From IMG/VR virus record IMGVR_UViG_3300019888_000001, positions 1-64,000 of that record: a stretch of 64,000 nt of DNA; one strand, 5' to 3'. This stretch comes from a virus. Positions 11,151-26,037 of the stretch are shown piece after piece. The position numbers and the translations under genes are program-made. The notes below the pieces were generated by a model that was not told where the DNA came from, searched no databases, and worked only from the letters and a program-made list of their open reading frames with translations. Every line of letters starts with the position of its first letter. Within the stretch, counting starts at the first letter, position 1.

Positions 11151-13604
<2,454 letters not shown>

Positions 13605-13608
<4 letters not shown>

Positions 13609-14012
13609 GCGGGTATACCAGTAGAAGGCAACCCTTGCTTTAGCGCTTCCTGCGCCGTGGTAGGAGCTGGCCCTGGTGTAGTAGATTCTTCGCCTTCGGG
13701 TTCTTCGCCTTCGGATTCTGTTTCCTCTTCCTCTGGCTTAACGGCGGCGCCATCTACGGCAACCAAACACAAACTCTTACCATTTTCGCCGAGTTTTAAA
13801 GTTGCTAAAGCCTGAAATGTTTTGCCTCCGGCCTTTGCATCTTCGGGGGGTTGAAAATTGGCAGGGAGAGGAAACTCAATATACTTTCCTTCATCTTTAT
13901 CCTGATCCGCCGTGGGTTCCGGTTCGGAGGATGCATCTGGCAGATTAGGAGATCGGGGGGGAACAGCCGCGGCAATCATGCTAGCAGGGTCGGAAGGAGG
14001 TGTGTCAGCCAT
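13605..14012 (-). CDS. Acidic low-complexity protein
   Basis: 135 residues, strongly acidic and Pro/Glu-rich (a run alternating EEEETESEGEEPEGEE) with a short predicted beta core in the middle (TFQALATLKLGENGKSLCLVAVDG). No known domain. It is coupled to the BppU-like gene downstream and has its own leaderless-type promoter. Possibly a head or connector accessory protein. Confidence 0.5.
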
Positions 14013-14017
14013 ACCTT

Positions 14018-14045
14018 ATTGTAACAATAATTAAATTAAGAGCAA
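14018..14045 (-). promoter_or_regulatory. Promoter, leaderless type, divergent
   Basis: Minus strand TTGCTC, 16-bp spacer, TACAAT, 5 nt before the ATG at 14012. It lies back to back with the + strand promoter at 14054-14082. Confidence 0.5.
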
Positions 14046-14053
14046 GAAATCAT

Positions 14054-14082
14054 TTGCTTGAAAGGTAAATCGAGCGTATACT
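14054..14082 (+). promoter_or_regulatory. Promoter of an HNH gene, leaderless type
   Basis: TTGCTT, 17-bp spacer, TATACT, 5 nt before the ATG at 14088. The HNH gene therefore carries its own promoter in a region otherwise read from the other strand. Confidence 0.55.
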
Positions 14083-14087
14083 ACTAC

Positions 14088-14507
14088 ATGGGAAAAATGA
14101 CTAAAGAATGGTGGAAGAAGTATACCAAAACACCCAAAAGGCAAGCTTGGACTAAAAAATATATCCGTTCTCCAAAACGCAAGGCTTTTGTTAAAAAATA
14201 TTGTAATCGACCCGAAGTTAAAGCGCGTCGTGCTCTTGAGCGACTGCGCCTTAAAGAAGCTTGCTTTAAACATTATTGTGCTGGAGAACCACATTGTATG
14301 TGCCCCGGTTGCCCCATAATTAATATAGTTTTGCTAGATCTAGATCATATTAATAATGATGGAGCAAAGCATCGCCGTGAGACAAACTGTAGAAGGGGTG
14401 TTCCTTTATATTCTTGGTTAAAAACCAGAAATTATCCACCAGGATTTCAAGTACTATGCTGTAATTGTCATAGAGCAAAAACAGCTAAAATTACATGTCA
14501 GCATTAG
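14088..14507 (+). CDS. HNH homing-type endonuclease
   Basis: 139 residues. Basic N-terminal arm, then a zinc-type HNH module: CFKHYCAGEPHCMCPGC, LLDLDHINNDGAKHRRE, and VLCCNCHRAK. It belongs to the same subgroup as the proteins at 16743-17153, 17493-17873 and 50967-51539 (all with DHING/DHINN and a late C-x-NC pair). It is inserted in the + orientation between two minus-strand structural genes and has its own promoter. The ATG chosen is the one 5 nt after the -10; another ATG lies three codons later. Confidence 0.85.
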   Translation: MGKMTKEWWKKYTKTPKRQAWTKKYIRSPKRKAFVKKYCNRPEVKARRALERLRLKEACFKHYCAGEPHCMCPGCPIINIVLLDLDHINNDGAKHRRETNCRRGVPLYSWLKTRNYPPGFQVLCCNCHRAKTAKITCQH

Positions 14508-14529
14508 CCCTTTAATGCGCAAGTATATT

Positions 14530-14925
14530 TTAATGTAAGTGCGTCGCCACACCGTGAAAATGATAAGGCACTTTCGCTTTATTCGCCATATATACATCAC
14601 AATTTCTCCAGGGGCGCTCAACCCACATATCCTGATGTAATTGTATAAATTTATCACTAATTTTAATACAACCCAAATATGGTGTACAGTCGCCGTCCTT
14701 ATACCCGCAACCACACCAAAGTTCAGAACAATTCCACATCTCTGTAAGATAATGAAATGAAGGAACAACATCGTGCTCAACATTTATAAACGTTAAACCT
14801 TCCTCCCATCGCTTTATAAAATAACGACTATAAGAAAGCTCATCAGTCATAGGCACAAAAATAGCATCTGGCACCGCGAGCAAGGTTCCTACCCGCAAGT
14901 GCGTAAAGGGAACAAAAATTTTTAT
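14530..14925 (-). CDS. Glycosyltransferase-like protein, ATA start proposed
   Basis: 131 residues if translation begins at the ATA codon that overlaps the previous stop (ATAA), giving I/MKIFVPFTHLRVGTLLAVPDA. The first conventional start (TTG at 14898) would cut off this well-formed strand. Motifs FVPMTDELSYSRYFIKRW, FINVEHDVVP (acidic pair reminiscent of a GT-A DxD region) and a Cys-rich segment (WNCSELWCGCGYKDGDC) suggest a nucleotide-sugar transferase or a related fold, but essential residues cannot be confirmed. It belongs with the several glycan genes of this phage. Confidence 0.55.
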   Translation of the reverse strand: MKIFVPFTHLRVGTLLAVPDAIFVPMTDELSYSRYFIKRWEEGLTFINVEHDVVPSFHYLTEMWNCSELWCGCGYKDGDCTPYLGCIKISDKFIQLHQDMWVERPWRNCDVYMANKAKVPYHFHGVATHLH

Positions 14926-15209
14926 ACGCCTTGAGGCGTGAATGTGGCTAATCCAACTTGAGCCTTACCATTTGGGCATATAGCGTGAATTTCGTCTCCT
15001 GGTTGAAGTTCTCCTTCAAGGACGTCTGACATATCAAAAGGTAAAGCACCAAGAAGTTCATAGGTTTTATTTGCTCTAACTAAAACCACAATGACAAGGT
15101 CGCTCGATGATAAGCGTCCAATAAATACCCACATTACAGGATCAGGAATAGTATAAATCAAAGTATCCGTGGGCCCAACCGTGACTACGTTTGAAGAGAA
15201 CGAAAACAT
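14922..15209 (-). CDS. Small beta-rich structural protein
   Basis: 95 residues, mostly predicted beta strand (TLIYTIPDPVMWVFIGRL, LVIVVLVRANKTYELL). No motif. It lies just downstream of the major capsid gene and its terminator, with its own promoter, so it may be a head decoration or minor structural protein. Confidence 0.5.
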   Translation of the reverse strand: MFSFSSNVVTVGPTDTLIYTIPDPVMWVFIGRLSSSDLVIVVLVRANKTYELLGALPFDMSDVLEGELQPGDEIHAICPNGKAQVGLATFTPQGV

Positions 15210-15215
15210 GTTATA

Positions 15216-15243
15216 AATATATTTGATTTTTATAATAAGGCAA
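15216..15243 (-). promoter_or_regulatory. Promoter, leaderless type
   Basis: Minus strand TTGCCT, 16-bp spacer, TATATT, 6 nt before the ATG at 15209. Confidence 0.45.
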
Positions 15244-15290
15244 GAAGCATTCGGGAAGAATACTACGTAACTTTTGTGTTATAAACCAAA

Positions 15291-15318
15291 AGTGCCCTGG
15301 GCCTTAACCCAGGGCACT
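15291..15318 (-). terminator. Rho-independent terminator after the capsid gene
   Basis: A perfect 11-bp stem (AGTGCCCTGGG / CCCAGGGCACT) with a 6-nt loop. On the minus strand it lies ~20 nt past the capsid stop and is followed by CTTTTGG, a short T tract. It separates capsid transcription from the next promoter. Confidence 0.8.
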
Positions 15319-15338
15319 AATGTTAATTCGTTAAAGAA

Positions 15339-16602
15339 TTAGGATGTGCAGCCTGCGATCACTTGACCTGCGGGCGCGCAACGTAAGTGACGAACCGCAA
15401 ACGCCAGATCTTGCCGTTCTAACTTAATGCCATAGGCAAAAAGCGCGCGGAAGAATCCGATGTTACGATCGATGTTACATATGCGATCAGGAATGTTGCG
15501 CCACACAAACTCCCCCGCCCAACTGTATTCCGGCTCATATGTCATATTGCCGACGTTACCTTGGGGTTTAGGAATAAGTACGCGTAACACGTCGTCGTGG
15601 TAAATGAGCGTATCTTCATACGCAGCATTCGTGTAGATCGGGTCTACATTCCACTTGTTGCCGCGGGTTGCGGCAGACGCGACATACGGGTAGCGGCGCA
15701 CATACGCCCCAGCCGGGATGTCGAAGTGAGGCGGAAACTGGACCGCTGCAAAAATGAACCCGTGGTAAACTTTACCCCCGAGACCAATCTTGCTAACCAA
15801 AATGCCTTTGTCGTCTACGACAGACGCATATTGGAAGTCGTTCCTGTTGTTAGCATCTTGCTTCTTTAGCGCGTTGAAGGTGTAGGTAGAACCCACGGCC
15901 GTATAGACCGGGCTTCCATCTTCTACAACCGCTGTGGGCTTGATGCTTCCACCGTTGTATTGCAGTTGCTGGTGAATGTTTTCCAGAATACCAAACGTCA
16001 AGGGTGACGTAGGCGGTCTGTTACTATTCATCGTCGCCAATGTGGCGACATCCAGACTTGAATTCGCGGTGATGTAATTACCAACCGCGTTCATATACTC
16101 GTTTTGGTATGTGTTTGACCACACCCATTTGCTGTTTTCAGCAAGAACTCGAGTAACGTTCTTTACTTGATCCATGACTTGCCACTGAAACCGCAGATCG
16201 TCCAAACAGATATCAGGACTGTTAACAGCCGCTTTGTTAAGCGTGACTGTCAAAGTCGTAACACCGAATGAATCAATGTTGTGGTTTGCAGTGATGCCGC
16301 ATGCACCAGTACCTACTAGATTGTTCGAATCTCCACCCGAGCCGCCTACTAAAGACGAACTACGAGTTGCGAAAGATTGGAAAAACCCCGGAGCGTTAAC
16401 GTTATCTGTGATAATAGAACGCTCATAAATCGGATAAGTGTACTGAAACCCTGCACCGTCAAAGCCACGGCTCTTTAGGAAGCCGTTTAATATAAAAATC
16501 GCTATCTTGAATCATCTTAACTACATCATTCCTTACAAGAAGGGATAGATCTAGAAACAAATTTTCAAGGCTAGCGCATGTTTCTCCACTTGGACCTGCC
16601 AT
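15339..16602 (-). CDS. Major capsid protein, made by +1 frameshift
   Basis: Two minus-strand frames together give a 420-residue protein. Frame 1 starts at the ATG at 16602 (MAGPSGETCASLENLFLDL) and stops after 47 codons with CTT TGA C at 16464-16458. Frame 2 (+1) reads on through the same site as GAC GGT GCA and stays open for 373 codons (DGAGFQYTYPIYERS, then the long capsid body ending VIAGCTS). Frame 2 has no ATG, GTG or TTG between its last upstream stop and residue ~69 of that stretch, so it cannot be started independently at a sensible place. Position after terminase, portal and scaffold, length, and the strong terminator behind it all point to the major head protein. CTT TGA C is the RF2 frameshift heptamer. 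An assembly indel is the alternative. Confidence 0.75.
16458..16464 (-). other. Putative programmed +1 frameshift site (CUU UGA C)
   Basis: The in-frame stop of the short capsid reading frame is embedded in CTT TGA C, identical to the slippery heptamer of bacterial prfB, where tRNA-Leu slips from CUU to UUU and GAC is read next. Here that slip restores the capsid frame precisely. A strong upstream Shine-Dalgarno-like stimulator as in prfB is not evident; only AAAGAG lies about 6 nt before CTT. Confidence 0.6.
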
Positions 16603-16631
16603 GATTTTATATACCTCATATAAAATTTTTA

Positions 16632-16665
16632 CTGAAGAAATTCCTACTACAATAGTAGGCTTCAG
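16632..16665 (-). promoter_or_regulatory. Hairpin in the capsid leader
   Basis: Outer CTGAAG/CTTCAG and inner CCTACTA/TAGTAGG pair around a 3-nt loop with one 5-nt bulge, ending 30 nt before the capsid ATG. An AT-rich TATATA sits 5 nt before that ATG. The hairpin may end the upstream HNH transcript or shape the capsid mRNA leader. A second weaker inverted repeat (CCCGG/CCGGG) lies ~10 nt further upstream. Confidence 0.5.
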
Positions 16666-16742
16666 TCTTTCCCGGGAGCGAATTTCCGGGCGAACATTTA
16701 ACGATGGCGCGTTATGGCCGCGTTCTCTATGCCGATAACTAC

Positions 16743-17153
16743 TTACGACACAGGATAATGAGTGTCAAGTAATTTTTTATGAGGACAAACCCCGTAAGCT
16801 CCGATAGCCTGATTGCAGTTATGACATAGCACTCTATAGCCGGACGGCCAGTTACGAACTCTAAGCCAGACATAAAAATTCTTTCCACCGGGGTTATTAA
16901 TTTCCTTACGATGCTGTTTTCCGCCTCCATTGATATGATCAATAGCTAAAAACTCAATCATGTTTTCTCCACAACATGCACACATAGGAGGATCGCCTCC
17001 ATAATGGCTGAAGCATTCGGCTTTTAACTTTAAATACCAACGCCTATGAACCGCTTTACCTTTTAGAGATTGCCGGTATTTGCGAATAGACGCCTTACCT
17101 TTTTCAGATTGTTCCCACTTTTTGGCGGCTCTTTTATGCGCTTCTGTGCTCAT
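16743..17153 (-). CDS. HNH homing-type endonuclease
   Basis: 136 residues. Basic N-terminal arm (SLKGKAVHRRWYLKLKAE), then CFSHYGGDPPMCACCGE, FLAIDHINGGGKQHRKE and VLCHNCNQAIGAYG, a complete zinc-type HNH module. Own promoter, leaderless geometry. It sits between the capsid leader and two small genes, so a cleavage site in the neighbouring capsid/scaffold region of related phages is plausible. Confidence 0.88.
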   Translation of the reverse strand: MSTEAHKRAAKKWEQSEKGKASIRKYRQSLKGKAVHRRWYLKLKAECFSHYGGDPPMCACCGENMIEFLAIDHINGGGKQHRKEINNPGGKNFYVWLRVRNWPSGYRVLCHNCNQAIGAYGVCPHKKLLDTHYPVS

Positions 17154-17158
17154 GGTTT

Positions 17159-17188
17159 ACATTACCACAAACCAGTACAATTTGTCAA
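17159..17188 (-). promoter_or_regulatory. Promoter of an HNH gene, leaderless type
   Basis: Minus strand TTGACA, 18-bp spacer, TAATGT, 5 nt before the ATG at 17153. Confidence 0.6.
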
Positions 17189-17194
17189 CAGAAA

Positions 17195-17371
17195 TCAGTG
17201 CTTCCAGGATCGCGCAACTTTGGCAAAATTGGCTCTCTTGCGCACTGCCGGGTCGGTCGAAGCCAGACCATGCATAATCTGGTCCATCGTAAGCTTCTTC
17301 CCTTTCTTGACCCCAAGATCACGATGAAGCCGGTCTTCGTGAGATTTCTTAATATGAATCCCGGATGCCAT
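17195..17371 (-). CDS. Small basic protein
   Basis: 58 residues (MASGIHIKKSHEDRLHRDL ... ARSWKH), rich in Lys, Arg and His, helical. It overlaps the stop of the upstream small membrane gene by one base (TAATG). No family recognised; the composition would suit nucleic-acid or capsid-interior binding. Confidence 0.6.
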   Translation of the reverse strand: MASGIHIKKSHEDRLHRDLGVKKGKKLTMDQIMHGLASTDPAVRKRANFAKVARSWKH

Positions 17372-17481
17372 TACTTCTTCTGAAACTTAGCTTTGAGATA
17401 GGCAACACCAGCGGCTATTTGGGTTGACCCTAAATACCCGGCAGCAACACCTATAATTAGACCTAAGATAAAACCAATCAT
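17371..17481 (-). CDS. Tiny single-pass membrane protein
   Basis: 36 residues: MIGFILGLIIGVAAGYLG forms one Gly-rich membrane helix, followed by a basic tail (YLKAKFQKK). It resembles the 45-residue protein at 30911-31048 (MIAFVIGLVLGGVAGFFIG). Its promoter at 17487-17515 has a -10 5 nt before the ATG. Confidence 0.6.
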   Translation of the reverse strand: MIGFILGLIIGVAAGYLGSTQIAAGVAYLKAKFQKK

Positions 17482-17486
17482 ACACT

Positions 17487-17515
17487 ACTCTATTACCTAG
17501 GAAGCGCCCCGTCAA
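17487..17515 (-). promoter_or_regulatory. Promoter inside the displaced scaffold tail
   Basis: Minus strand TTGACG, 17-bp spacer, TAGAGT, 5 nt before the ATG at 17481. The -35 lies in codons for KLDGALPR at the end of the HNH gene and the spacer covers its stop. The corresponding scaffold codons (KLEGVLPK) lack this -35, which suggests the HNH-linked copy is the original 3' end. Confidence 0.55.
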
Positions 17516-17873
17516 GTTTGGACTTCAGCATCTCAGCTGCCGCAGCCCTGGCGCAACCGCAGTTACAATTAAAGCACAAAACTCGCAGTTCGTCGGGAAA
17601 CTTATTTTTAACCAAATAAAAATACTGATCGCCGCCTCTAGTTCGTCTTTTTGCGCTTCCGCCACCATTTATGTGATCTAAAGTCAACCAAAGCATATTA
17701 GAAGTTCGACACCCGCATTCACAAGAACAACGAGGAGTATTGCCTCCATAATGACGGAAACAAGCAAGTTTGCGTAGTAAATAACTTTTTTTATTTGAAG
17801 CTTGCCTTTTGGCTTTTGTAAGTGGATTACGCCAGCGCAAAAGACCTTTTAAACGATAATAGTTTTTTGTCAT
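17493..17873 (-). CDS. HNH endonuclease fused to a scaffold-like C-terminal tail
   Basis: 126 residues. HNH module: CFRHYGGNTPRCSCECGC, LWLTLDHINGGGSAKRR, VLCFNCNCGCARA. Immediately after the last cysteines it ends AAAAEMLKSKLDGALPR, matching the end of the upstream scaffold protein, TAAEMLKAKLEGVLPK. It starts directly behind the scaffold stop (TAAATG). The simplest reading is insertion of the nuclease near the 3' end of the scaffold gene, with the original tail now read as part of the nuclease and a replacement tail on the scaffold. Confidence 0.85.
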   Translation of the reverse strand: MTKNYYRLKGLLRWRNPLTKAKRQASNKKSYLLRKLACFRHYGGNTPRCSCECGCRTSNMLWLTLDHINGGGSAKRRTRGGDQYFYLVKNKFPDELRVLCFNCNCGCARAAAAEMLKSKLDGALPR

Positions 17874-19202
17874 TTATTTTGGAAGAACCCCCTCCAATTT
17901 AGCTTTCAACATCTCAGCCGCGGTCTTATAGGCAGTTGGTTGCGGAATTTCTTCTGGAACATTTCCCGCGCCAGCGGCTGGCGTTCCGCCACGAAGTTTA
18001 GTCAATTGGTCATCCAGCGTAACATTCTTCTGGTGTAAGTCACTTACCATGTTCAAAAGAAGGGGAAAAACTTCGGCCTTATAGAAACGAGTCGCCAGTT
18101 CCTCGTTAGATAATGATGCCACATCAACAGATTGAACTCTCTCATGAGCATCGACGACCATTTTATCCCAGCCTTCGTCCCCGGTCTTTTTGAATACCGG
18201 AAGATCGGTTGAGAGTTTATTATACGACGCGTCTAGAGCCGTGACCCAATCTTCATGGAACTTGGCCGTTTGGCTTTTCTCTGCCGCTTCGCGAGCTTTT
18301 TGCATTTCCGCGAACTTACCGGCGGCGCCATCGATAGTGGATTGCTTAAGTTCTAACAACCGGTCTTGTTCGCTCAGCAAATGATCAAACCTGTTAATAT
18401 CCAGGCGGTTAAAATTTGCCGACAGTTCTGCTAATTTATCGCTCCTCTTATTAGGGTCTGGGTCGGAAAGAGCCGCCTGTAAATCACCAGGGGCAATCTC
18501 ATACTTCTTAGCCAGCGCTGTTAGGGCATTTTGAGCGGTCTTAAGAGGCGATGTAATTCTTTTCTTAAAGTCGTCAGTAGCTTCAACACGAGTAACTGAA
18601 AGTTCGTCTTCATAACGTTTAATCGTTTCCTCCATCTCGGTGACCTTAGAAGCGTCTACCGCAGTTGCTTTCTTCCTGAAGTCGTCGCGTTCTGCTTCAA
18701 GAGCTTTGATCTTACCTTCCGCAATAGCCAGGTCTCCGCGCACAGCTTTGAAAGCTGAACCAGCCTTTACAGTCATCATCTCTTCCGCTTTATCTAAAGC
18801 AGCTTTGGTAAGCTTTTCGGCCGGCGTTGGTCCAGTCGGCCCAGTTGCCGCTGGCTCAGGAGCGCCTGTAGGACCGGTTGCTGCCGGTTGCGTAGCGCCG
18901 GTAGGACCTGTGGCCGCAGGTTGGGGAGTTCCTGTTGGGCCTGTGGGCGGTTTGGGTAAAGAGACCGGACTTGGAATTACAATCGCCGAGGTGGATGGGG
19001 GAGCAGGCGTTGGAGCCGGTGTAGGAACCGGAGCAGGTGGCGTAATTGCCGTAGCGGCATTATCCACGGGGGGCTGCGCTCTGCGCATAACAAAATCTGG
19101 GTCCATTACACCATGCGGAAACAATTTGTCGAGTTCGGCACGGATTTTGGTGGGAGCCTGACCTTCGCCGGGGATTACAGTAGGAGCGGGGTTTTCGGCC
19201 AT
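17874..19202 (-). CDS. Scaffolding protein (probable)
   Basis: 442 residues. The N-terminal 130 residues are Pro/Ala/Thr-rich and contain four TGPTG blocks spaced by PAA-type linkers. The rest is charged and helical with long coiled-coil segments (AEGKIKALEAERDDFRKKA, EMQKAREAAEKSQTAKFHE). It lies between portal and major capsid genes, the classical place of the head scaffold, which guides procapsid assembly and leaves or is cut. No protease motif is visible. Translation starts one base after the stop of the upstream gene. Confidence 0.7.
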   Translation of the reverse strand: MAENPAPTVIPGEGQAPTKIRAELDKLFPHGVMDPDFVMRRAQPPVDNAATAITPPAPVPTPAPTPAPPSTSAIVIPSPVSLPKPPTGPTGTPQPAATGPTGATQPAATGPTGAPEPAATGPTGPTPAEKLTKAALDKAEEMMTVKAGSAFKAVRGDLAIAEGKIKALEAERDDFRKKATAVDASKVTEMEETIKRYEDELSVTRVEATDDFKKRITSPLKTAQNALTALAKKYEIAPGDLQAALSDPDPNKRSDKLAELSANFNRLDINRFDHLLSEQDRLLELKQSTIDGAAGKFAEMQKAREAAEKSQTAKFHEDWVTALDASYNKLSTDLPVFKKTGDEGWDKMVVDAHERVQSVDVASLSNEELATRFYKAEVFPLLLNMVSDLHQKNVTLDDQLTKLRGGTPAAGAGNVPEEIPQPTAYKTAAEMLKAKLEGVLPK

Positions 19203-19203
19203 A

Positions 19204-19572
19204 TTATTTTTCCTCAGGGGTTAATAGGTTTTTTAAAGTATCGTCCGGTTTAGGTTCTGAAGCTCGTTTGGCTTCCTCGCGTTTTTCGTCAGACGAGCGC
19301 CAAGAATCAGTCGCGGAATCTGCGGTGGGAAGTCTAGCTGGAATAGAAGCTAAGTCCAAAAAATTGGTAAGGCAGTCGAGGTAGCCCTCTCGTTTAGCGC
19401 CCATCAACGCATACTGCTCCATAAGTCCGGCGGTTCCAGACATGGCCGAGGGAGTAAAAGCTTTCTCTCGTACAATTTCCAGAGCTTCAGCCATAAGCGG
19501 GTCATTAAGAATCACGGAAAATTCTTGACCTTTAGTAGGATGCTTTTTCCACTGATCGAATTTAGTTAACAT
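19204..19572 (-). CDS. Head-region protein, unknown
   Basis: 122 residues from the ATG of MLTKFDQWKKHPTKGQEF. Mostly helical, with a charged C-terminal tail. It lies between portal and scaffold and may help in head assembly or connect the two. A promoter 29 nt upstream of the ATG (TAAGGT) implies a short leader without a clear ribosome-binding site. Upstream GTG at 19602 is an alternative start. Confidence 0.55.
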   Translation of the reverse strand: MLTKFDQWKKHPTKGQEFSVILNDPLMAEALEIVREKAFTPSAMSGTAGLMEQYALMGAKREGYLDCLTNFLDLASIPARLPTADSATDSWRSSDEKREEAKRASEPKPDDTLKNLLTPEEK

Positions 19573-19600
19573 AATATTACGCGCTATTACAGGCAACCGC

Positions 19601-19629
19601 ACCTTAAGACCTACTCTTTAACGTGTCAA
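19601..19629 (-). promoter_or_regulatory. Promoter of the scaffold gene pair
   Basis: Minus strand TTGACA, 17-bp spacer, TAAGGT, 28 nt before the ATG at 19572. It is one of the strongest matches to the phage promoter type and has a short true leader. Confidence 0.6.
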
Positions 19630-19639
19630 CTAATTATTT

Positions 19640-22042
19640 TTAAGGAGCGGGTTTAGGCTTGGCCGCTGCCTTAGCTTTGGCCTCAATTACTTTAAGATTT
19701 TGTTGATGCTCCTCCTCTTTTCGACGCTGTTCAGCCTTGCTCTCGGCCATCTTCTGAGCATGAGCCTCGTCTTTCCGTCGCTGCTCGGCTTGGCTTTCCC
19801 TGGTCTTTATACCCAACTCAGCCGCCTGGTTAGCTGGATTCTGGTTCGAGGTAACATCTACAATGTGAGCATGAGTTCTAGTAGCAGCCTCCGCATCTTT
19901 CAGAGCGCGTTCTTGGTCTGATTTTTCTTGGTTATGCTTCATCTGCTGGGCATGCGCTTGGTCCTTACGGCGCTGCTCAGCTTGGCTTTCTTGAGCCTTG
20001 AGAGCCTGGTCGGAGGTCTGTTGCTGACCCTGCGCCGCTTGTTTAGACTGGAGTTGTTGGGCGTGATCCATGGCGGCTTGTACTCGCTCCTGCGCGTTAC
20101 TGACCTGGCGGGTAAGTTCGGCCACAAGTTTGCCCTGAAGCTTATCAGGCTTCACGACCTGCATATGCTGGCTGATATGCTGCAGTTTAACCTGGGCGCC
20201 CTGAATCAGTTGAGGCGTAACTTGCCCTGATTCCAACGCATCTAAGTCGCCGGTCAAACTTGGTAAGTGAACTTGGGTGTGCAGAATATGATTGTCATTT
20301 GGTACCACTGTTGCCGGCGTCCCGGCAGACATAACGCTATTTTGGAGTTCCGCTATCTCCAGATCAACCGGCATACGGCCACCAGTGGTAATCGTTGGCA
20401 CATACCGATCAACTTGAGAGTATCCACAGCGTTGGGCAAATCGGTCGCGCAATAGCGCATTTTGCCCGACCGGATCGAGGGACCCATAGTACTGCATAAA
20501 TTCGTCAAGTGCCAGTAAGCGATTGGTTGGGGAACCATAGCCTACTGCCCTGACAGGCATCACTCGAGGGGTATTATAAATTGCTTCTAACGGAACACCG
20601 CGCTCGTGGCAGCGTTTACGAAAGTCCCAAACTTCACGGCCACCTGGATCTTTGGGTCGCAAAGTTCTAGAGGCCGTCCTCCGCCACACTTCATTAAGAT
20701 GTCGACCCCAAGGTTGATAAAAAAGATTCATAGACGCTGTGGGTAGCACAGCTTCTTTCATCAGTTCGGATTGAACTTCGAACTTGGTTTTTTCGTTGGT
20801 TTCGTCAGTGGACTTGGAAAGGAAATCTCCAGTGTTAGTTCGCATTGTGAGCGACATTTCCTGGATAATCGGAAGAATAGATGTAGACGGATTGTTAAGC
20901 TGGCTATTCTGAACCTGTAGGCCAGGCGGCATATAGATAGCGCCGCCGTAGAATAGAAGAGCCATATCTTCTGCGTCGGAGGGAGTTTTAGGCTGGAGGA
21001 GAAGGCTACCCGCGAATTTGGCGTTGTCTACTGTTTGGCACCGGAGAGTGTTTAGCACTTGTACGATGGGGTAGATTTCGTGAGCTAGACCGCGGATTGA
21101 ATGGAGCGTACCATTAGACCCGACCTCAAAAGGGAAATACGTAAAACACTGATTAATGTTATCGAACCGATTCTCACACTTAAAAAGAAAATCATCATTA
21201 CCAAAACTCCGCAAAGTAAGATACTGCGAAACCCTACCCGAAAATTCCCTGATCCAGACATGCACCAGTTTCACTGTTTCCTGCGACATTGCTGTAGCAA
21301 AAATATCGTTGTTCTTTAAAATTTGTTGGAGTTTTTCCCAAGCGCCAACTGTGAAAATTAAATTCTGGTCTACGGCATTTACGATTGCTTTCTGAACCTC
21401 TTTAACATTCCATCGCTTATCTTTTGGATCTAAGTCTTTAATATACTGATACATCCGTCCTACCGATATATCGCGCATAGCTATGGCTATATCTACCTCT
21501 TCTTCATTGGCTAGTGTTCCACGTGGCAGTTTAAAGTCTTCTAAACCAGCGACTTGCCATTTCCAGTCTACTTCATCTGGAAAGTAAAGAAAACCTAAAC
21601 CATGTGTGGTAAATTTTTGAATTAGAAGTTGAAAGTAGGGATCAAAACACGACCATTCTTTCAGCATACGGTGCCATTCTTCGGCCATGATATTATTCCA
21701 CCCTGGCCGTTGTAAAGGGTCTCCGAAATCTGTCAAAGGAATAGCTAGTGTAGGAACGGAGTCAGTCAGATCATAATAACCAGCCATCTCAGCTTTAAGC
21801 CGAGCTTTCATATCCCCAAAATTAAGATTACAACGCCCATGCTGTCCTGTATCTGAAAGATGCCGAGCATCAAAAGGAGGAGCCCCATCAGCCGCGGCTT
21901 GAATGTCCTGTCGAGCTAGCGCGCTATAAGTGTCGCTGTAAATTATTTTTCGTACAACTGCGTTTAGACTTATAGCGTCAGTTATACGTGTGATAGGAGC
22001 TTTACCCGTTTTGGAGTCAAGCGTTCTTAAATTCGCGTCCAT
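19640..22042 (-). CDS. Portal protein
   Basis: 800 residues. Size, position directly between terminase-side genes and scaffold, and the body (YQPWGRHLNEVWRRTASRTL, FGDPLQRPGWNNIMAEEWHRM, TVDNAKFAGSLLLQP) fit a long portal of the podovirus-like kind, forming the dodecameric ring through which DNA is packaged. The last ~170 residues are a highly charged coiled coil with an imperfect repeat: ESQAEQRRKDQAHAQ, ESQAEQRRKDEAHAQ and ESKAEQRRKEEEHQQ. That tail could reach into the head as a barrel. A promoter lies 12 nt upstream. Confidence 0.75.
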   Translation of the reverse strand: MDANLRTLDSKTGKAPITRITDAISLNAVVRKIIYSDTYSALARQDIQAAADGAPPFDARHLSDTGQHGRCNLNFGDMKARLKAEMAGYYDLTDSVPTLAIPLTDFGDPLQRPGWNNIMAEEWHRMLKEWSCFDPYFQLLIQKFTTHGLGFLYFPDEVDWKWQVAGLEDFKLPRGTLANEEEVDIAIAMRDISVGRMYQYIKDLDPKDKRWNVKEVQKAIVNAVDQNLIFTVGAWEKLQQILKNNDIFATAMSQETVKLVHVWIREFSGRVSQYLTLRSFGNDDFLFKCENRFDNINQCFTYFPFEVGSNGTLHSIRGLAHEIYPIVQVLNTLRCQTVDNAKFAGSLLLQPKTPSDAEDMALLFYGGAIYMPPGLQVQNSQLNNPSTSILPIIQEMSLTMRTNTGDFLSKSTDETNEKTKFEVQSELMKEAVLPTASMNLFYQPWGRHLNEVWRRTASRTLRPKDPGGREVWDFRKRCHERGVPLEAIYNTPRVMPVRAVGYGSPTNRLLALDEFMQYYGSLDPVGQNALLRDRFAQRCGYSQVDRYVPTITTGGRMPVDLEIAELQNSVMSAGTPATVVPNDNHILHTQVHLPSLTGDLDALESGQVTPQLIQGAQVKLQHISQHMQVVKPDKLQGKLVAELTRQVSNAQERVQAAMDHAQQLQSKQAAQGQQQTSDQALKAQESQAEQRRKDQAHAQQMKHNQEKSDQERALKDAEAATRTHAHIVDVTSNQNPANQAAELGIKTRESQAEQRRKDEAHAQKMAESKAEQRRKEEEHQQNLKVIEAKAKAAAKPKPAP

Positions 22043-22054
22043 TAGATAGACGTT

Positions 22055-22082
22055 ATCTTACAGCTTTTTCGTTAGAACACAA
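22055..22082 (-). promoter_or_regulatory. Promoter of the portal gene
   Basis: Minus strand TTGTGT, 16-bp spacer, TAAGAT, 12 nt before the ATG at 22042. Confidence 0.4.
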
Positions 22083-22506
22083 CTTTAGGTTTATGGTTAA
22101 GGGAAACCCCTTTTTGAGAGTTTTCTTTACTAAAAATGATCTGGAGGTTTTCTGCCGAATGGGCGCCTCCCTTAGCTAAGGGAATAATATGATCAACCGC
22201 AACATCAAAACGCTTACGCAATTCCTTAGCCCGAGCATAAATCTTTTTAATAGCTTCCACATTTCCTATGGTAGCTTTTTGCCGCCTTGCTCTACGTTTT
22301 GCTTCATGGAAAGTAAATAGCTCGCTATGCCTTCTTTTCCAGGCACTCCAATATTCAGGGTTAGCGTTTCTAAATTTTCTGCTTGCTTCACATGCATGGT
22401 TAGGAAAAGCTAATCGAATTAAGCGAGCGTATTCCCTATATACATCAGGAAATTTGGCCATACGAATCTTGTAATATTCTTTTTCTTTCTCAACTCTGGT
22501 TTTCAT
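22072..22506 (-). CDS. HNH homing-type endonuclease
   Basis: 144 residues from the ATG of MKTRVEKEKEYYKIR, which overlaps the previous gene by 17 nt. YREYARLIRLAFPNHACEA near the N-terminus and VAVDHIIPLAKGGAHSAENLQII in the HNH core are close to the HNH protein at 7568-8104, so the two are recent paralogues. Located between a glycosyltransferase-like gene and the portal gene. Confidence 0.85.
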   Translation of the reverse strand: MKTRVEKEKEYYKIRMAKFPDVYREYARLIRLAFPNHACEASRKFRNANPEYWSAWKRRHSELFTFHEAKRRARRQKATIGNVEAIKKIYARAKELRKRFDVAVDHIIPLAKGGAHSAENLQIIFSKENSQKGVSLNHKPKVVF

Positions 22507-23242
22507 ATAAGGTATAAATACTCCCATCTTTACAGCCGTGCACGAGCACAGCTTCTTCTGGAATTGGGACACTATAGTCGTGATAGTTAACAGGATCCAC
22601 GGCGTCCATAACAATTTGATTTTTTTCGTTTCGACGATATCTGCAGGTTCCCCACCTATGGGCAAGCAAGTTTGTGTCGTGAGTTTCTGGAACTACCTCT
22701 TCTCCAGTCCAGGTATCCCAGCTAATCGTTGCGGGCACACTTTGAATCATTTTACACCGCCGCATATAATCGGCAGGGTACGTCGCGACCCCCATTAAGT
22801 GGTGCCCTTTTTCAAACCGCGCTCCAGTTTCAAGATTCTTATAACGAGAAATATTAATGTGGCCCATATATGGTTTTTTAGATTGGGCGTATTCTTTTTC
22901 CCAGGTTTCTAACCAACCTGGCGCGAATGGAAAAACATCGCTTTCTAACCAAAACCACGGAAGAGTATTGTCTTTTGTTTCCAAATAGTCTGCAGTAGCT
23001 ATAAACATAGAATTTGGCCCAGCCGGCCACGCTTCATCTTCAAACTCAGGAACCGTGAAGTCTACTTTTTTGAACCCTTTCGCGAGAATCGCTACAATCT
23101 CCGGAGCGTCCAACTTTACGCGCCAAGATGACACCACAAGAGCTTCGTGATCCTGCATACCGCCAAGTTTAACAATTCGTTCTGCTAACGCTCGGGCAAG
23201 CATGAAGTCGCCATAGCTAACGGGAAAAACCGGAAGTATCAT
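22490..23242 (-). CDS. Glycosyltransferase-like protein
   Basis: 250 residues. It reads like a GT-A-type transferase: a mobile N-terminal half (YGDFMLARALAERIVKLGG), then LPWFWLESDVFPFAPGWLETW, where ESDVFP takes the place of a DxD-like metal site, and an ending VLVHGCKDGSIYTL. No exact family can be assigned. It lies among head genes, so it could glycosylate virion proteins. Coupled to the upstream small gene (stop/start overlap). Confidence 0.5.
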   Translation of the reverse strand: MILPVFPVSYGDFMLARALAERIVKLGGMQDHEALVVSSWRVKLDAPEIVAILAKGFKKVDFTVPEFEDEAWPAGPNSMFIATADYLETKDNTLPWFWLESDVFPFAPGWLETWEKEYAQSKKPYMGHINISRYKNLETGARFEKGHHLMGVATYPADYMRRCKMIQSVPATISWDTWTGEEVVPETHDTNLLAHRWGTCRYRRNEKNQIVMDAVDPVNYHDYSVPIPEEAVLVHGCKDGSIYTLYENQS

Positions 23243-23610
23243 TAGAATAGTTTGATTGGCGCAGCTTCGGGATGAAGTACGGGATCAGTAACCGCCTGCA
23301 CTGCGCCTCTTGCTGAAGCTTGGGCTTCAAACCTAGCTGTGTCTAAATCGACCTCATTCTTACTTAAAGAAATATACGCAGAAAGAAACGCCGCCTGGTA
23401 GGCTGGAAAGTAAGCCGCGGCGCGTAAGTTAGGATCGTAACCGTCAGGTAGGAATTGTTTGATAGCAGACGCGACCGCCCAGCTAGCCACTTTGGTGGCC
23501 GTCCCAGATAATCGGCTCAGGGCTTTTTCGGATTGGTCTTTGCGATGCTGGGGCGTTATGGTAATAACTTTCTTAGGCTCCTTCTCCGCATCTTCAGGGG
23601 GTTTAGACAT
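23242..23610 (-). CDS. Hypothetical head-region protein
   Basis: 122 residues: a charged N-terminal 30, then an Ala-rich helical body (ATKVASWAVASAIKQFLPDGY, AYFPAYQAAFLSAYISL). It lies directly between terminase and a glycosyltransferase-like gene. No recognised family. TAATAT lies 5 nt before its ATG, compatible with a leaderless start, but no good -35 is visible. Confidence 0.5.
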   Translation of the reverse strand: MSKPPEDAEKEPKKVITITPQHRKDQSEKALSRLSGTATKVASWAVASAIKQFLPDGYDPNLRAAAYFPAYQAAFLSAYISLSKNEVDLDTARFEAQASARGAVQAVTDPVLHPEAAPIKLF

Positions 23611-23618
23611 ATTATATA

Positions 23619-25436
23619 TTACAACCGTTTGCCCCGATATGCTGAAGATAAATTAACTGGCATCATACGTGTAAACGAACTTAATCGGCGGACCGTGTCA
23701 CGCCACGGAGTTCCTTTTGTAATAAACTCTTGCTGTTGTAGAGTTGTCATATGCGTCGCGAACCCCAACCGCTGCCGGCACAATTCAACCAGAATAAAAC
23801 CTGCCTCGGCCAGATCGGGCGAAAACCCTGTTCGAACTTTCATATCTTCTTTGGGCTCCGCGTACAGTCGTTTTTCAGCACCGGTGGTTCCATACTTACG
23901 TACCGTCATCTCTTTAGCCATTGCCGGCGCGATCCCTTTAAGTTGGCCTTGACGCAAGAGTTCCTTCGCAGAATACCAAAGCTCAGTAGCGCGATTATAA
24001 TATCGCTCGTTGGCGGGTCTAAGATCCGTTAGGCTGACCGGCAGTTCGCTGGCCTTACCACCGAACCTAACACGGAGCACGTTTCTAGACCAAATGATAT
24101 CGAGTACATCACAGAACGGATCCCCGGCACCAGTGGAATCGACGGCTGCATATTGGGGCTGCACGCCTTCCCGAACACAAAGATCGCGGAACTTGCCCGC
24201 AATCTGCATGGTGCGGTTGTCGACTTTATTCGTAACATCTTCAACCAGCTCCACATAACGATCTAAGTTGATTACCCGAACGCCGTCTGTATTCACACCG
24301 ACCGTGCCTAGATAAACCATCGACCGGTCACCCCCGTTCGTAAAACTGGGGTCGAGCGCGGCCACTCTAATAAGAGGTGAGGAGCCCCAGATAGCCGGAA
24401 TGTCGCCACGCCACTTCACAATATCCTGTTCGCTGTAGATCAAGTCCTCTTGACCCATAGGACTCGGGAACCCCCGAACCATTCGCCAGAAACGAATTGA
24501 GTTTTCACCGCCTTCAGCGGCTTTCGCTTCCTCCACTTTTTCCTTGGTAGGAAGAAACGGAACTCCGTTAATCCCGAACTGACTGGTCGGGTCGGTAATC
24601 GCGGGCGACTTTGTAGCATCGAAGTGAAGCGATACGCCGTATTCTGACTCCCATTTGAAATCGTTAACCGTAATCGAGGTCCATCCAGCTTTTGGTTTCC
24701 AGAGTTTCGCAAAAGGATCGTAATATCCAGGCGGGTTTGCGGCACCGATAAATTGATACGAGGGGTTTGAACTGAGGTTACCCCCGGGCAGAGCATACTC
24801 CAAAACCGCATCTGTGAGTTCGCTAAGCTCATCCGCGAACACGATAACGTTTTTATTGTGGAAACCGATAAGCTTCTCGGTCGCCTCTTTCTCCACTTTC
24901 CGATCCGCGGCGACTAGCGATATGCTGGATTTGTCAGAACTGGTAAACTTCGTAGAAGCAAACCGCACAATTCCAATAGAATCGATTACTTTTAGTGGAA
25001 GGCCGGGAGGAGGAATCACGCGAATGAAATCAAGCAGGGAGCCCCAAGCGCGCTTGCGACTTTCTTTTAAACTCGTAGATAGAATAGCGCATAACGTGTT
25101 ACGAGCATCTGCGAGGAAATTAATCAAGATCCATAACGCCACTGTTTCCGATTTCGTGCTCGAAGCACAGCCTCCGAGAGCCACATATCTATGCACGCAC
25201 AGTTCGTCGATGATGGCTTCAGACCAAGCATTCCGGATAAAGAATTTGCTCCGGTTTCGTACCGGGTTTTTCGGCCCGTATAGAAGATTAACTATCTTCC
25301 AAAAATGCTCAGGCTGCCCGAGGCCTCCTTGCTCAACAGTGCGCTTAGTTTTGAAGCAATGTAGCTCTATATCTAACGGGTTCCAGGAAATAGGAAAGCG
25401 CAAACCATACTTATCTTTATAAGAAACGTTAGCCAT
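23619..25436 (-). CDS. terL: Terminase large subunit
   Basis: 605 residues, usual length for this ATPase-nuclease that pumps DNA into the head. Walker A-like GGCASSTKSET at residues 88-98 (Lys deviating in spacing as in many terminases), Walker B VIVFADELSEL near residue 200, and a C-terminal RNase H-like nuclease with acidic positions in VAALDPSFTNGGDRS, AAVDSTGAGDPF and FSPDLAEAGF. The start lies inside the last codons of the upstream HNH gene. The small-subunit candidate is not adjacent; it lies at 59.4-59.8 kb. Confidence 0.9.
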   Translation of the reverse strand: MANVSYKDKYGLRFPISWNPLDIELHCFKTKRTVEQGGLGQPEHFWKIVNLLYGPKNPVRNRSKFFIRNAWSEAIIDELCVHRYVALGGCASSTKSETVALWILINFLADARNTLCAILSTSLKESRKRAWGSLLDFIRVIPPPGLPLKVIDSIGIVRFASTKFTSSDKSSISLVAADRKVEKEATEKLIGFHNKNVIVFADELSELTDAVLEYALPGGNLSSNPSYQFIGAANPPGYYDPFAKLWKPKAGWTSITVNDFKWESEYGVSLHFDATKSPAITDPTSQFGINGVPFLPTKEKVEEAKAAEGGENSIRFWRMVRGFPSPMGQEDLIYSEQDIVKWRGDIPAIWGSSPLIRVAALDPSFTNGGDRSMVYLGTVGVNTDGVRVINLDRYVELVEDVTNKVDNRTMQIAGKFRDLCVREGVQPQYAAVDSTGAGDPFCDVLDIIWSRNVLRVRFGGKASELPVSLTDLRPANERYYNRATELWYSAKELLRQGQLKGIAPAMAKEMTVRKYGTTGAEKRLYAEPKEDMKVRTGFSPDLAEAGFILVELCRQRLGFATHMTTLQQQEFITKGTPWRDTVRRLSSFTRMMPVNLSSAYRGKRL

Positions 25437-26037
25437 TCCTGCCCTTTAATAAATTATCATGTATCCATAACGGCTGCAGATTTTTAAAATTAAAACATTC
25501 ATGCTGTTGGGACACCTTCGTAAGGTCAAATTTACAAACGGGCTTAATATGATCAATATGCCACATGCGGCGGTTTTCCCACGTCATTCCTGGAAGAAAT
25601 TTACTGGCTAAATAATCGAGTAAAGTCTTTATAGAGCACCCTATTAATTGTTCAGTAGTTTTGCTTTTTCTCGTACCTTGGGATCGTATGGCCGAATTTA
25701 TTCTACAACGTAGACGCCCCATAATCACAAAACCAGGATTTTTAACTCGCTGTTTTTGGGCCCATTTTGTAGCATACTTCCTATGATACAATTTATATTC
25801 TTTCGTGTTTCTTCGCCGTTGCCAGTATTGGCGAACATATTCTTTGTGGGTGATATACCAAAGTTTGGAACACATTATTTTTTTTGCTCTATTTTTATGA
25901 TAGTTTTTTTTGGCGGCCGCTTTTAATCTGACGCTATGCTTTTTCCGGTAAAAACACGCACGCGCTATACATGCGTCTTTATGCTCCAAATAGTATTTTT
26001 TATCATACGCCTTTTTATCCTGTTTATTTTTAAACAT
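25429..26037 (-). CDS. HNH homing-type endonuclease
   Basis: 202 residues from MFKNKQDKKAYDKKYY. Long Lys/Arg/Tyr-rich arm, then LIGCSIKTLLDYLASKFLPGMTW, MWHIDHIKPVCKFDLT and FKNLQPLWIHDNLLKG: the HNH type in which the signature is WHIDHI...NLQPLW. It is the same type as 44288-45208. It overlaps the terminase start by 8 nt, so it is inserted exactly at the 5' end of terL. Earlier in-frame starts exist but would add an unrelated hydrophobic leader. Confidence 0.85.
   Translation of the reverse strand: MFKNKQDKKAYDKKYYLEHKDACIARACFYRKKHSVRLKAAAKKNYHKNRAKKIMCSKLWYITHKEYVRQYWQRRRNTKEYKLYHRKYATKWAQKQRVKNPGFVIMGRLRCRINSAIRSQGTRKSKTTEQLIGCSIKTLLDYLASKFLPGMTWENRRMWHIDHIKPVCKFDLTKVSQQHECFNFKNLQPLWIHDNLLKGRNG

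Follow-up and report, generated by a model that had tools for sequence, protein, structure and literature searches.

Two HNH endonuclease genes lie between the scaffold and capsid genes of an uncultured phage, and the first of them, directly behind the scaffold gene, ends in a peptide that resembles the end of the scaffold protein. Why should a nuclease gene carry the end of its neighbor, and which of the two ends is the original one? Here, we describe the duplicated end, compare it with HNH-free relatives and with related HNH loci, and then assess how the arrangement may have arisen.

The scaffold end is present twice in the head-gene cluster

The window (the 64,000-nt stretch of DNA analyzed here) is part of an 82-kb virus record. 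Its head genes are on the minus strand in the order terminase (23619-25436), portal (19640-22042), a small gene (19204-19602), scaffold (17874-19202), a 1.27-kb interval (16602-17873), and capsid (ATG at 16602, stop at 15339). We infer that the 442-aa product of ORF 17874-19202 is the scaffold protein from its place between the portal and capsid genes, and HNH-free relatives have a homologue (37-42% identical) in the same gene order. The scaffold-to-capsid interval contains two HNH genes and two small ORFs, all of which separate the scaffold from the capsid gene. The first HNH gene (17493-17873, minus strand; 126 aa) starts with an ATG that abuts the scaffold TAA, and the next gene is a 36-aa membrane-like ORF beginning MIGFILGLIIGVAAGYLGST (17371-17481, minus strand). 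A 58-aa ORF and the second HNH gene (16743-17153, minus strand) make up the rest.

The scaffold gene closes with AAEMLKAKLEGVLPK and its stop codon (copy 1; 17874-17921, minus strand), while the HNH gene closes, as an in-frame fusion, with AAEMLKSKLDGALPR and its stop codon (copy 2; 17493-17540, minus strand). The end of the target gene is present twice, flanking a nuclease ORF. The 15-residue tails share 11 of 15 amino acids, and the 48 nt that include the stop are 73% identical, ranking second in length among the direct repeats found in 13500-25500. The earlier note on this DNA had placed both genes and both tails correctly, and homology of the tails was confirmed in two ways. The BLOSUM62 score of the pair (58 over 15 aa) was reached by 0 of 300,000 shuffles. 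Among same-locus, same-strand ORF pairs from the fetched loci (n = 40,312), a score of at least 58 occurred in five rows. One row is the window, two rows are a single other HNH locus that was counted twice, and the last two are paralog pairs. The latter (L217 and L138) are paralogous neighbors and were rejected as HNH scars. Mismatches between the window tails fall 3/2/8 by codon position, and five of the nine changed codons are synonymous.

HNH-free relatives have a single scaffold end

Direct searches gave no scaffold relatives in viral contigs, and none for the region or the portal in INPHARED phages, so relatives were gathered via the portal in IMG/VR. The four nearest (L002, L004, L005, and L206) have portals that are 54-59% identical and scaffolds that are about 38-45% identical to those of the window, and none of them has an HNH gene after the scaffold gene. 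The scaffold proteins terminate in ASFADVAKTKLAGVLPP (L002), ASFAGTMKTALQGVLPP (L004), ASFIQVAREKLGGILPP (L005), and ASFSDIARSKLDGVLPR (L206), each time a single copy of the pattern LxG(V/I)LP(P/R). The duplicated peptide is therefore the conserved scaffold C-terminus. In these four relatives, the distance from scaffold to capsid is ~0.2-0.33 kb vs. 1.27 kb in the window. Altogether, 35 relatives with a complete scaffold showed no HNH motif behind it (0.3-1.6 kb downstream available), and tandem tails were absent from the HNH-free relatives seen so far. The spacer behind the HNH gene (TAGAGTAGTGTA) resembles the spacer behind the L005 scaffold (TAGCGTAGTGTA), but the two are not in register, and this match was set aside. 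An alignment of capsid-gene leaders (A4) was likewise too weak for a conserved RNA.

The original end had further been identified by a promoter, with TTGACG (17510-17515, minus strand) as the -35 element of the next gene. TTGACG is indeed found only in the HNH-linked copy; as a promoter that marks the original end, it did not hold up. With TAGAGT at 17487-17492, the site reads TTGACG-17-TAGAGT (9/12), and the region has two such sites vs. 2.9 expected by chance. Transcription from this site would begin close to the start codon (ATG) of the small ORF that follows. In L002, L004, and L206, a promoter-like site precedes the capsid gene, ~90 nt beyond the scaffold stop, and L005 is the only one of the four in which a TTGACA overlaps that stop.

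The HNH protein carries a scaffold tail where its family usually ends in CPH

The first HNH ORF retains all columns that are invariant in the nine homologs kept (Y42, C49, C55, D66, H67, N69, C100, N102, and C103). The HNH part proper (17541-17873, minus strand) runs up to NCNCGCARA. The usual end of the family is NCNxAxGxxGxCPH, and a C-x-H occurs within 25 aa in 89 of 107 homologous cores; here, the G-x-CPH is missing and the scaffold tail follows straight after NCNCGCARA. Two other HNH genes of the same type in the window match phrog_2255, with which the first shares the DHINGGG...CxNCN core while falling below threshold. The first HNH gene had no Pfam, PHROG, or NCBIfam match and lacks the C-terminal CPH, so the enzyme may be inactive. 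Its structural model (pLDDT 72.5) has HNH domains as best structural matches, although these are weak (Z only 3.7 and 3.5), and the protein as a query gave no significant match in a PDB sequence search or in Foldseek. The tail is modeled within a helix (residues 101-121), with low confidence at the tail itself. We also considered a group I intron with a homing endonuclease, which was rejected as Rfam gave no match at E up to 1 around the ORF (16400-19300).

Related HNH loci show the same architecture

HNH relatives were collected, and the upstream and downstream flanks of each were compared. Many of the high scores in the translated flank screen came from low-complexity GC-rich frames (L035, L051, L028, L094, and others); these were removed on visual inspection, which makes the tally of true cases per screened locus approximate. 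The remaining cases involve several different target genes. At L055, the 3' end of a terminase gene (GMTKAEILASIAF) recurs as the in-frame end of the HNH gene (GMSKEEILENVAF). An unknown 314-aa gene at L007 has its 3' end in two versions (KPLKPPRARVFAVVR and KPLKPPRAKVFAVVR), with 12 of 13 changed codons synonymous and the leftover out of frame. The leftover is also out of frame at L059, where the target is the 3' end of an RNase H gene, while at L071 the 3' end of a clamp loader gene is duplicated (NIRAALMDLELALLMA and NIRAALMDLELEMMTA) around an HNH gene in antisense. The fifth target is a band-7 gene on a contig of a euryarchaeote MAG (L210; CALMQK010000030.1, 1810-3342): it ends in SPIILNPTGG, and the HNH gene behind it ends in frame in VPIILNPTGG. 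The band-7 gene had no homologue, as a second copy, in 18 other genomes of the host family, and for this reason the contig is possibly viral.

Other loci show variants of this layout. At L093 (1946-2574), the HNH gene lies inside a cytosine methyltransferase gene, a mid-gene version in which a 74-nt repeat of the PCQPFS region (FTIVTGGFPCQPFSHAGRR(Q/K)GTAD) flanks the HNH, with copies 555 bp apart and 18 of 19 changed codons synonymous. The methyltransferase frame remains open through the insert. A mirror image is found at the 5' end of terminase genes related to that of L055 (L101, 736-1480; L104, 483-1241). Here, the native terminase N-terminus (e.g., MSDYPKTALQYCIDVTSGKIPA) is joined in frame with an HNH from a different family, and the terminase with a new N-terminus follows. 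L069 (2600-3300) is probably another 5' case, with KVIKYISDLKRRFDHIKIK and a stop left upstream, then the HNH, then a gene starting MIKYIGDLKRRYDHIKV. Pooled over five systems, mismatches between copies fall 17/11/54 by codon position, i.e., mainly at third positions.

Which copy is native

The earlier note had suggested that the HNH-linked copy is the original scaffold end and that the present end is a replacement, and had proposed a comparison with HNH-free relatives. This comparison succeeded at L055. Its HNH-free relative L099 has a terminase that is 95% identical in protein and 87% in DNA, and the L099 terminase 3' end matches the HNH-linked tail of L055 at 36 of 40 nt, 27 of them in a row. 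The present L055 terminase end, on the other hand, shares only 46 of its last 72 coding nt with L099 vs. 87% over the body of the gene, and no other 72-nt window falls below 52. Thus, the original terminase end of L055 is the one now linked to the HNH, its present end arrived with the element, and the direction of replacement is shown at this locus. Other loci agree. Codon usage in the present tails is aberrant at L007 (percentile 0.00025) and L071 (0.0005) vs. 0.99 and 0.46 for the displaced tails. For L071, the direction rests on this codon usage, and its relatives L219 and L220 (53-54%) did not settle it. At L101 and L104, the displaced N-terminus matches the native one at 16 of 20 positions, and the present N-termini at 10 and 13 of 20.

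Signals in the window itself are mixed. None of the HNH-free relatives found is close enough to fix the direction, the nearest scaffolds being about 38-45% identical. Of four discriminating residues, L206 (ending in SKLDGVLPR) shares S, D, and R with the HNH-linked tail and V with the present one; in DNA, its end shares 29 of 45 nt with the HNH-linked tail vs. 24 of 45 with the present one. For L002 and L004, the balance tips toward the present tail by a single residue, and the residues of L005 favor neither copy. The HNH-linked copy has a V-to-A change that none of the relatives shares. By codon usage, the present tail is at the 66th percentile and the HNH-linked tail at the 15th, so the present tail is not marked as foreign. 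By analogy with L055, the HNH-linked copy is likely the displaced native scaffold end, and the present end its replacement.

A probable homing element that supplies a substitute gene end

Starting from the homologous tails with an HNH gene between them, the absence of this arrangement in relatives, its recurrence at sibling loci, and the direction at L055, we think it probable that the HNH gene is a free-standing, intronless homing-type element at the scaffold 3' end, which brought a functional substitute for the last codons and displaced the original end to a position behind the nuclease. The HNH protein would recognize and cut the conserved, uninterrupted scaffold end, and repair from an element-bearing phage would copy in both the HNH gene and a substitute end that encodes nearly the same peptide. 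Since the substitute differs at ~27% of bases, it would probably resist the enzyme; that the replacement alters the cut site, as had been suggested, is plausible from a comparison of the two copies. The old scaffold end would be left behind, in the window as the C-terminus of the nuclease, and the scaffold would still make its conserved C-terminal peptide because the element supplies equivalent last codons.

The opposite direction is the alternative that deserves most attention: the present scaffold end would be native, and the HNH gene would have arrived already fused to a scaffold tail from another phage. The present tail does keep the V of GVLP, is slightly nearer to L002 and L004 in residues, and has ordinary codon usage where the HNH-linked tail ranks lower. 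These differences are small, however, L206 favors the HNH-linked copy, and it is the nuclease-linked or displaced copy that is native in L055, L007, L071, L101, and L104, which leaves the reverse direction unlikely. A local tandem duplication of the scaffold 3' end in one phage, with chance insertion of the HNH gene between the two ends and drift of both, would involve just two copies and one gene, and no donor is known for either tail. We nevertheless regard it as very improbable. Differences between the copies concentrate at third codon positions, the pattern expected of two functional genes, and at L055 just one of the copies has diverged from the relative. In addition, duplicated ends around an HNH gene are found in several unrelated target genes, and tandem tails are absent in the HNH-free relatives seen so far.

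Could the fusion instead be functional, with the HNH protein using the scaffold C-terminal helix as an address tag for procapsid entry or for binding the capsid protein? The tail is in frame, reproduces a conserved scaffold end without a stop or indel, and is modeled as part of a helix, albeit with low confidence at the tail. Sibling HNH proteins carry terminase or band-7 ends, though, and at other loci the leftover lies in another frame (L007, L059) or in antisense (L071). With leftovers from other genes and in such orientations, position alone explains the fusion, and we give a targeting role even slightly less credence than a tandem duplication. Finally, a match of only 15 residues might raise the thought of chance similarity between two short C-termini, but the shuffles, the ORF-pair control (where the other high scores were paralogs or another HNH locus), and the exact coincidence with both stop codons make this a negligible prospect. 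Displacement of the native scaffold end by a homing-type element thus remains our preferred reading.

Relation to known mobile elements

The closest known systems are the mobile ORFs of fungal mitochondria, in which a nuclease near the 3' end of an essential gene comes with an equivalent foreign C-terminus, the native one is displaced downstream, and the nuclease is sometimes in phase. In Allomyces macrogynus, a mobile ORF in atp6 is described as bringing a foreign C-terminus (Paquin 1994, as cited in PMC3630166). In Glomus sp., mobile ORFs replace the C-termini of atp6, atp9, cox2, and nad3, where the native C-termini are 91-98% identical in DNA to a close relative and the inserted ones 64-81% (PMC3630166). 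While the fungal nucleases are LAGLIDADG or GIY-YIG enzymes, those described here are HNH proteins of a phrog_2255-like family on phage contigs and one archaeal MAG contig; the target tails are ~10-35 residues, and there are also 5'-end and antisense versions. The phage HNH form of end replacement looks like a new variant of the mitochondrial mobile-ORF type.

Free-standing homing endonucleases of T4-like phages (seg and mob genes) also home without introns, and mobE lies behind nrdA with stop and start abutting or overlapping (PMC2988022), much as the window has an intronless HNH gene directly behind an essential gene. According to the T4 review, the cut sites of these enzymes lie hundreds to thousands of bases away from the gene, and no duplicated target-gene end is described (PMC2988022). 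Intron- and intein-borne homing endonucleases likewise enter conserved essential genes with function restored; the window differs in having no intron and a target end that is duplicated rather than split. A literature search limited to open-licence papers turned up no description, in phages, of target-gene ends duplicated around a free-standing nuclease.

On balance, we favor a broader reading, with somewhat less assurance than for the window: intronless HNH homing elements may form a general class, present in phages and at least one archaeon-binned contig and located in the conserved ends of essential genes (scaffold, terminase, clamp loader, RNase H). These elements would supply recoded 3' or 5' ends, and the displaced native end would be a scar, often fused to the nuclease. 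In phages, such a class would parallel the mobile ORFs of fungal mitochondria, having evolved independently with another nuclease fold. Free-standing homing endonucleases are common in phages, and their harmless placement in or against essential genes is poorly explained outside introns and inteins. Duplicated, recoded ends are one answer, in that the element pays with a spare gene end. Because the duplicated ends point to the probable recognition site (the native end), the specificity of each nuclease can be tested directly, and the scar can be searched for in any genome. For phylogenies, it matters that a gene end beside an HNH gene may be of foreign origin.

Other features of the head-gene region

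The second HNH gene of the scaffold-capsid interval (16743-17153, minus strand) has a promoter-like TTGACA-18-TAATGT just before its ATG, and another TTGACA, at the 3' end of this HNH gene, precedes the capsid gene. The portal gene has, in its 3' part (19694-19990), repeats of ~51 nt that encode charged repeats (ESQAEQRRKD...). The capsid frame of the window is broken at CTT TGA C (16464-16458, minus strand), where a one-base skip restores L-D and the frame. The heptamer is identical to the +1 frameshift site of release factor 2 (prfB), and the break is either a prfB-like +1 frameshift site or an assembly indel. The capsid genes of L004 and L005 are intact, while those of L002 (9966-9969) and L003 (11346-11349) are also in two overlapping frames, at a different place.
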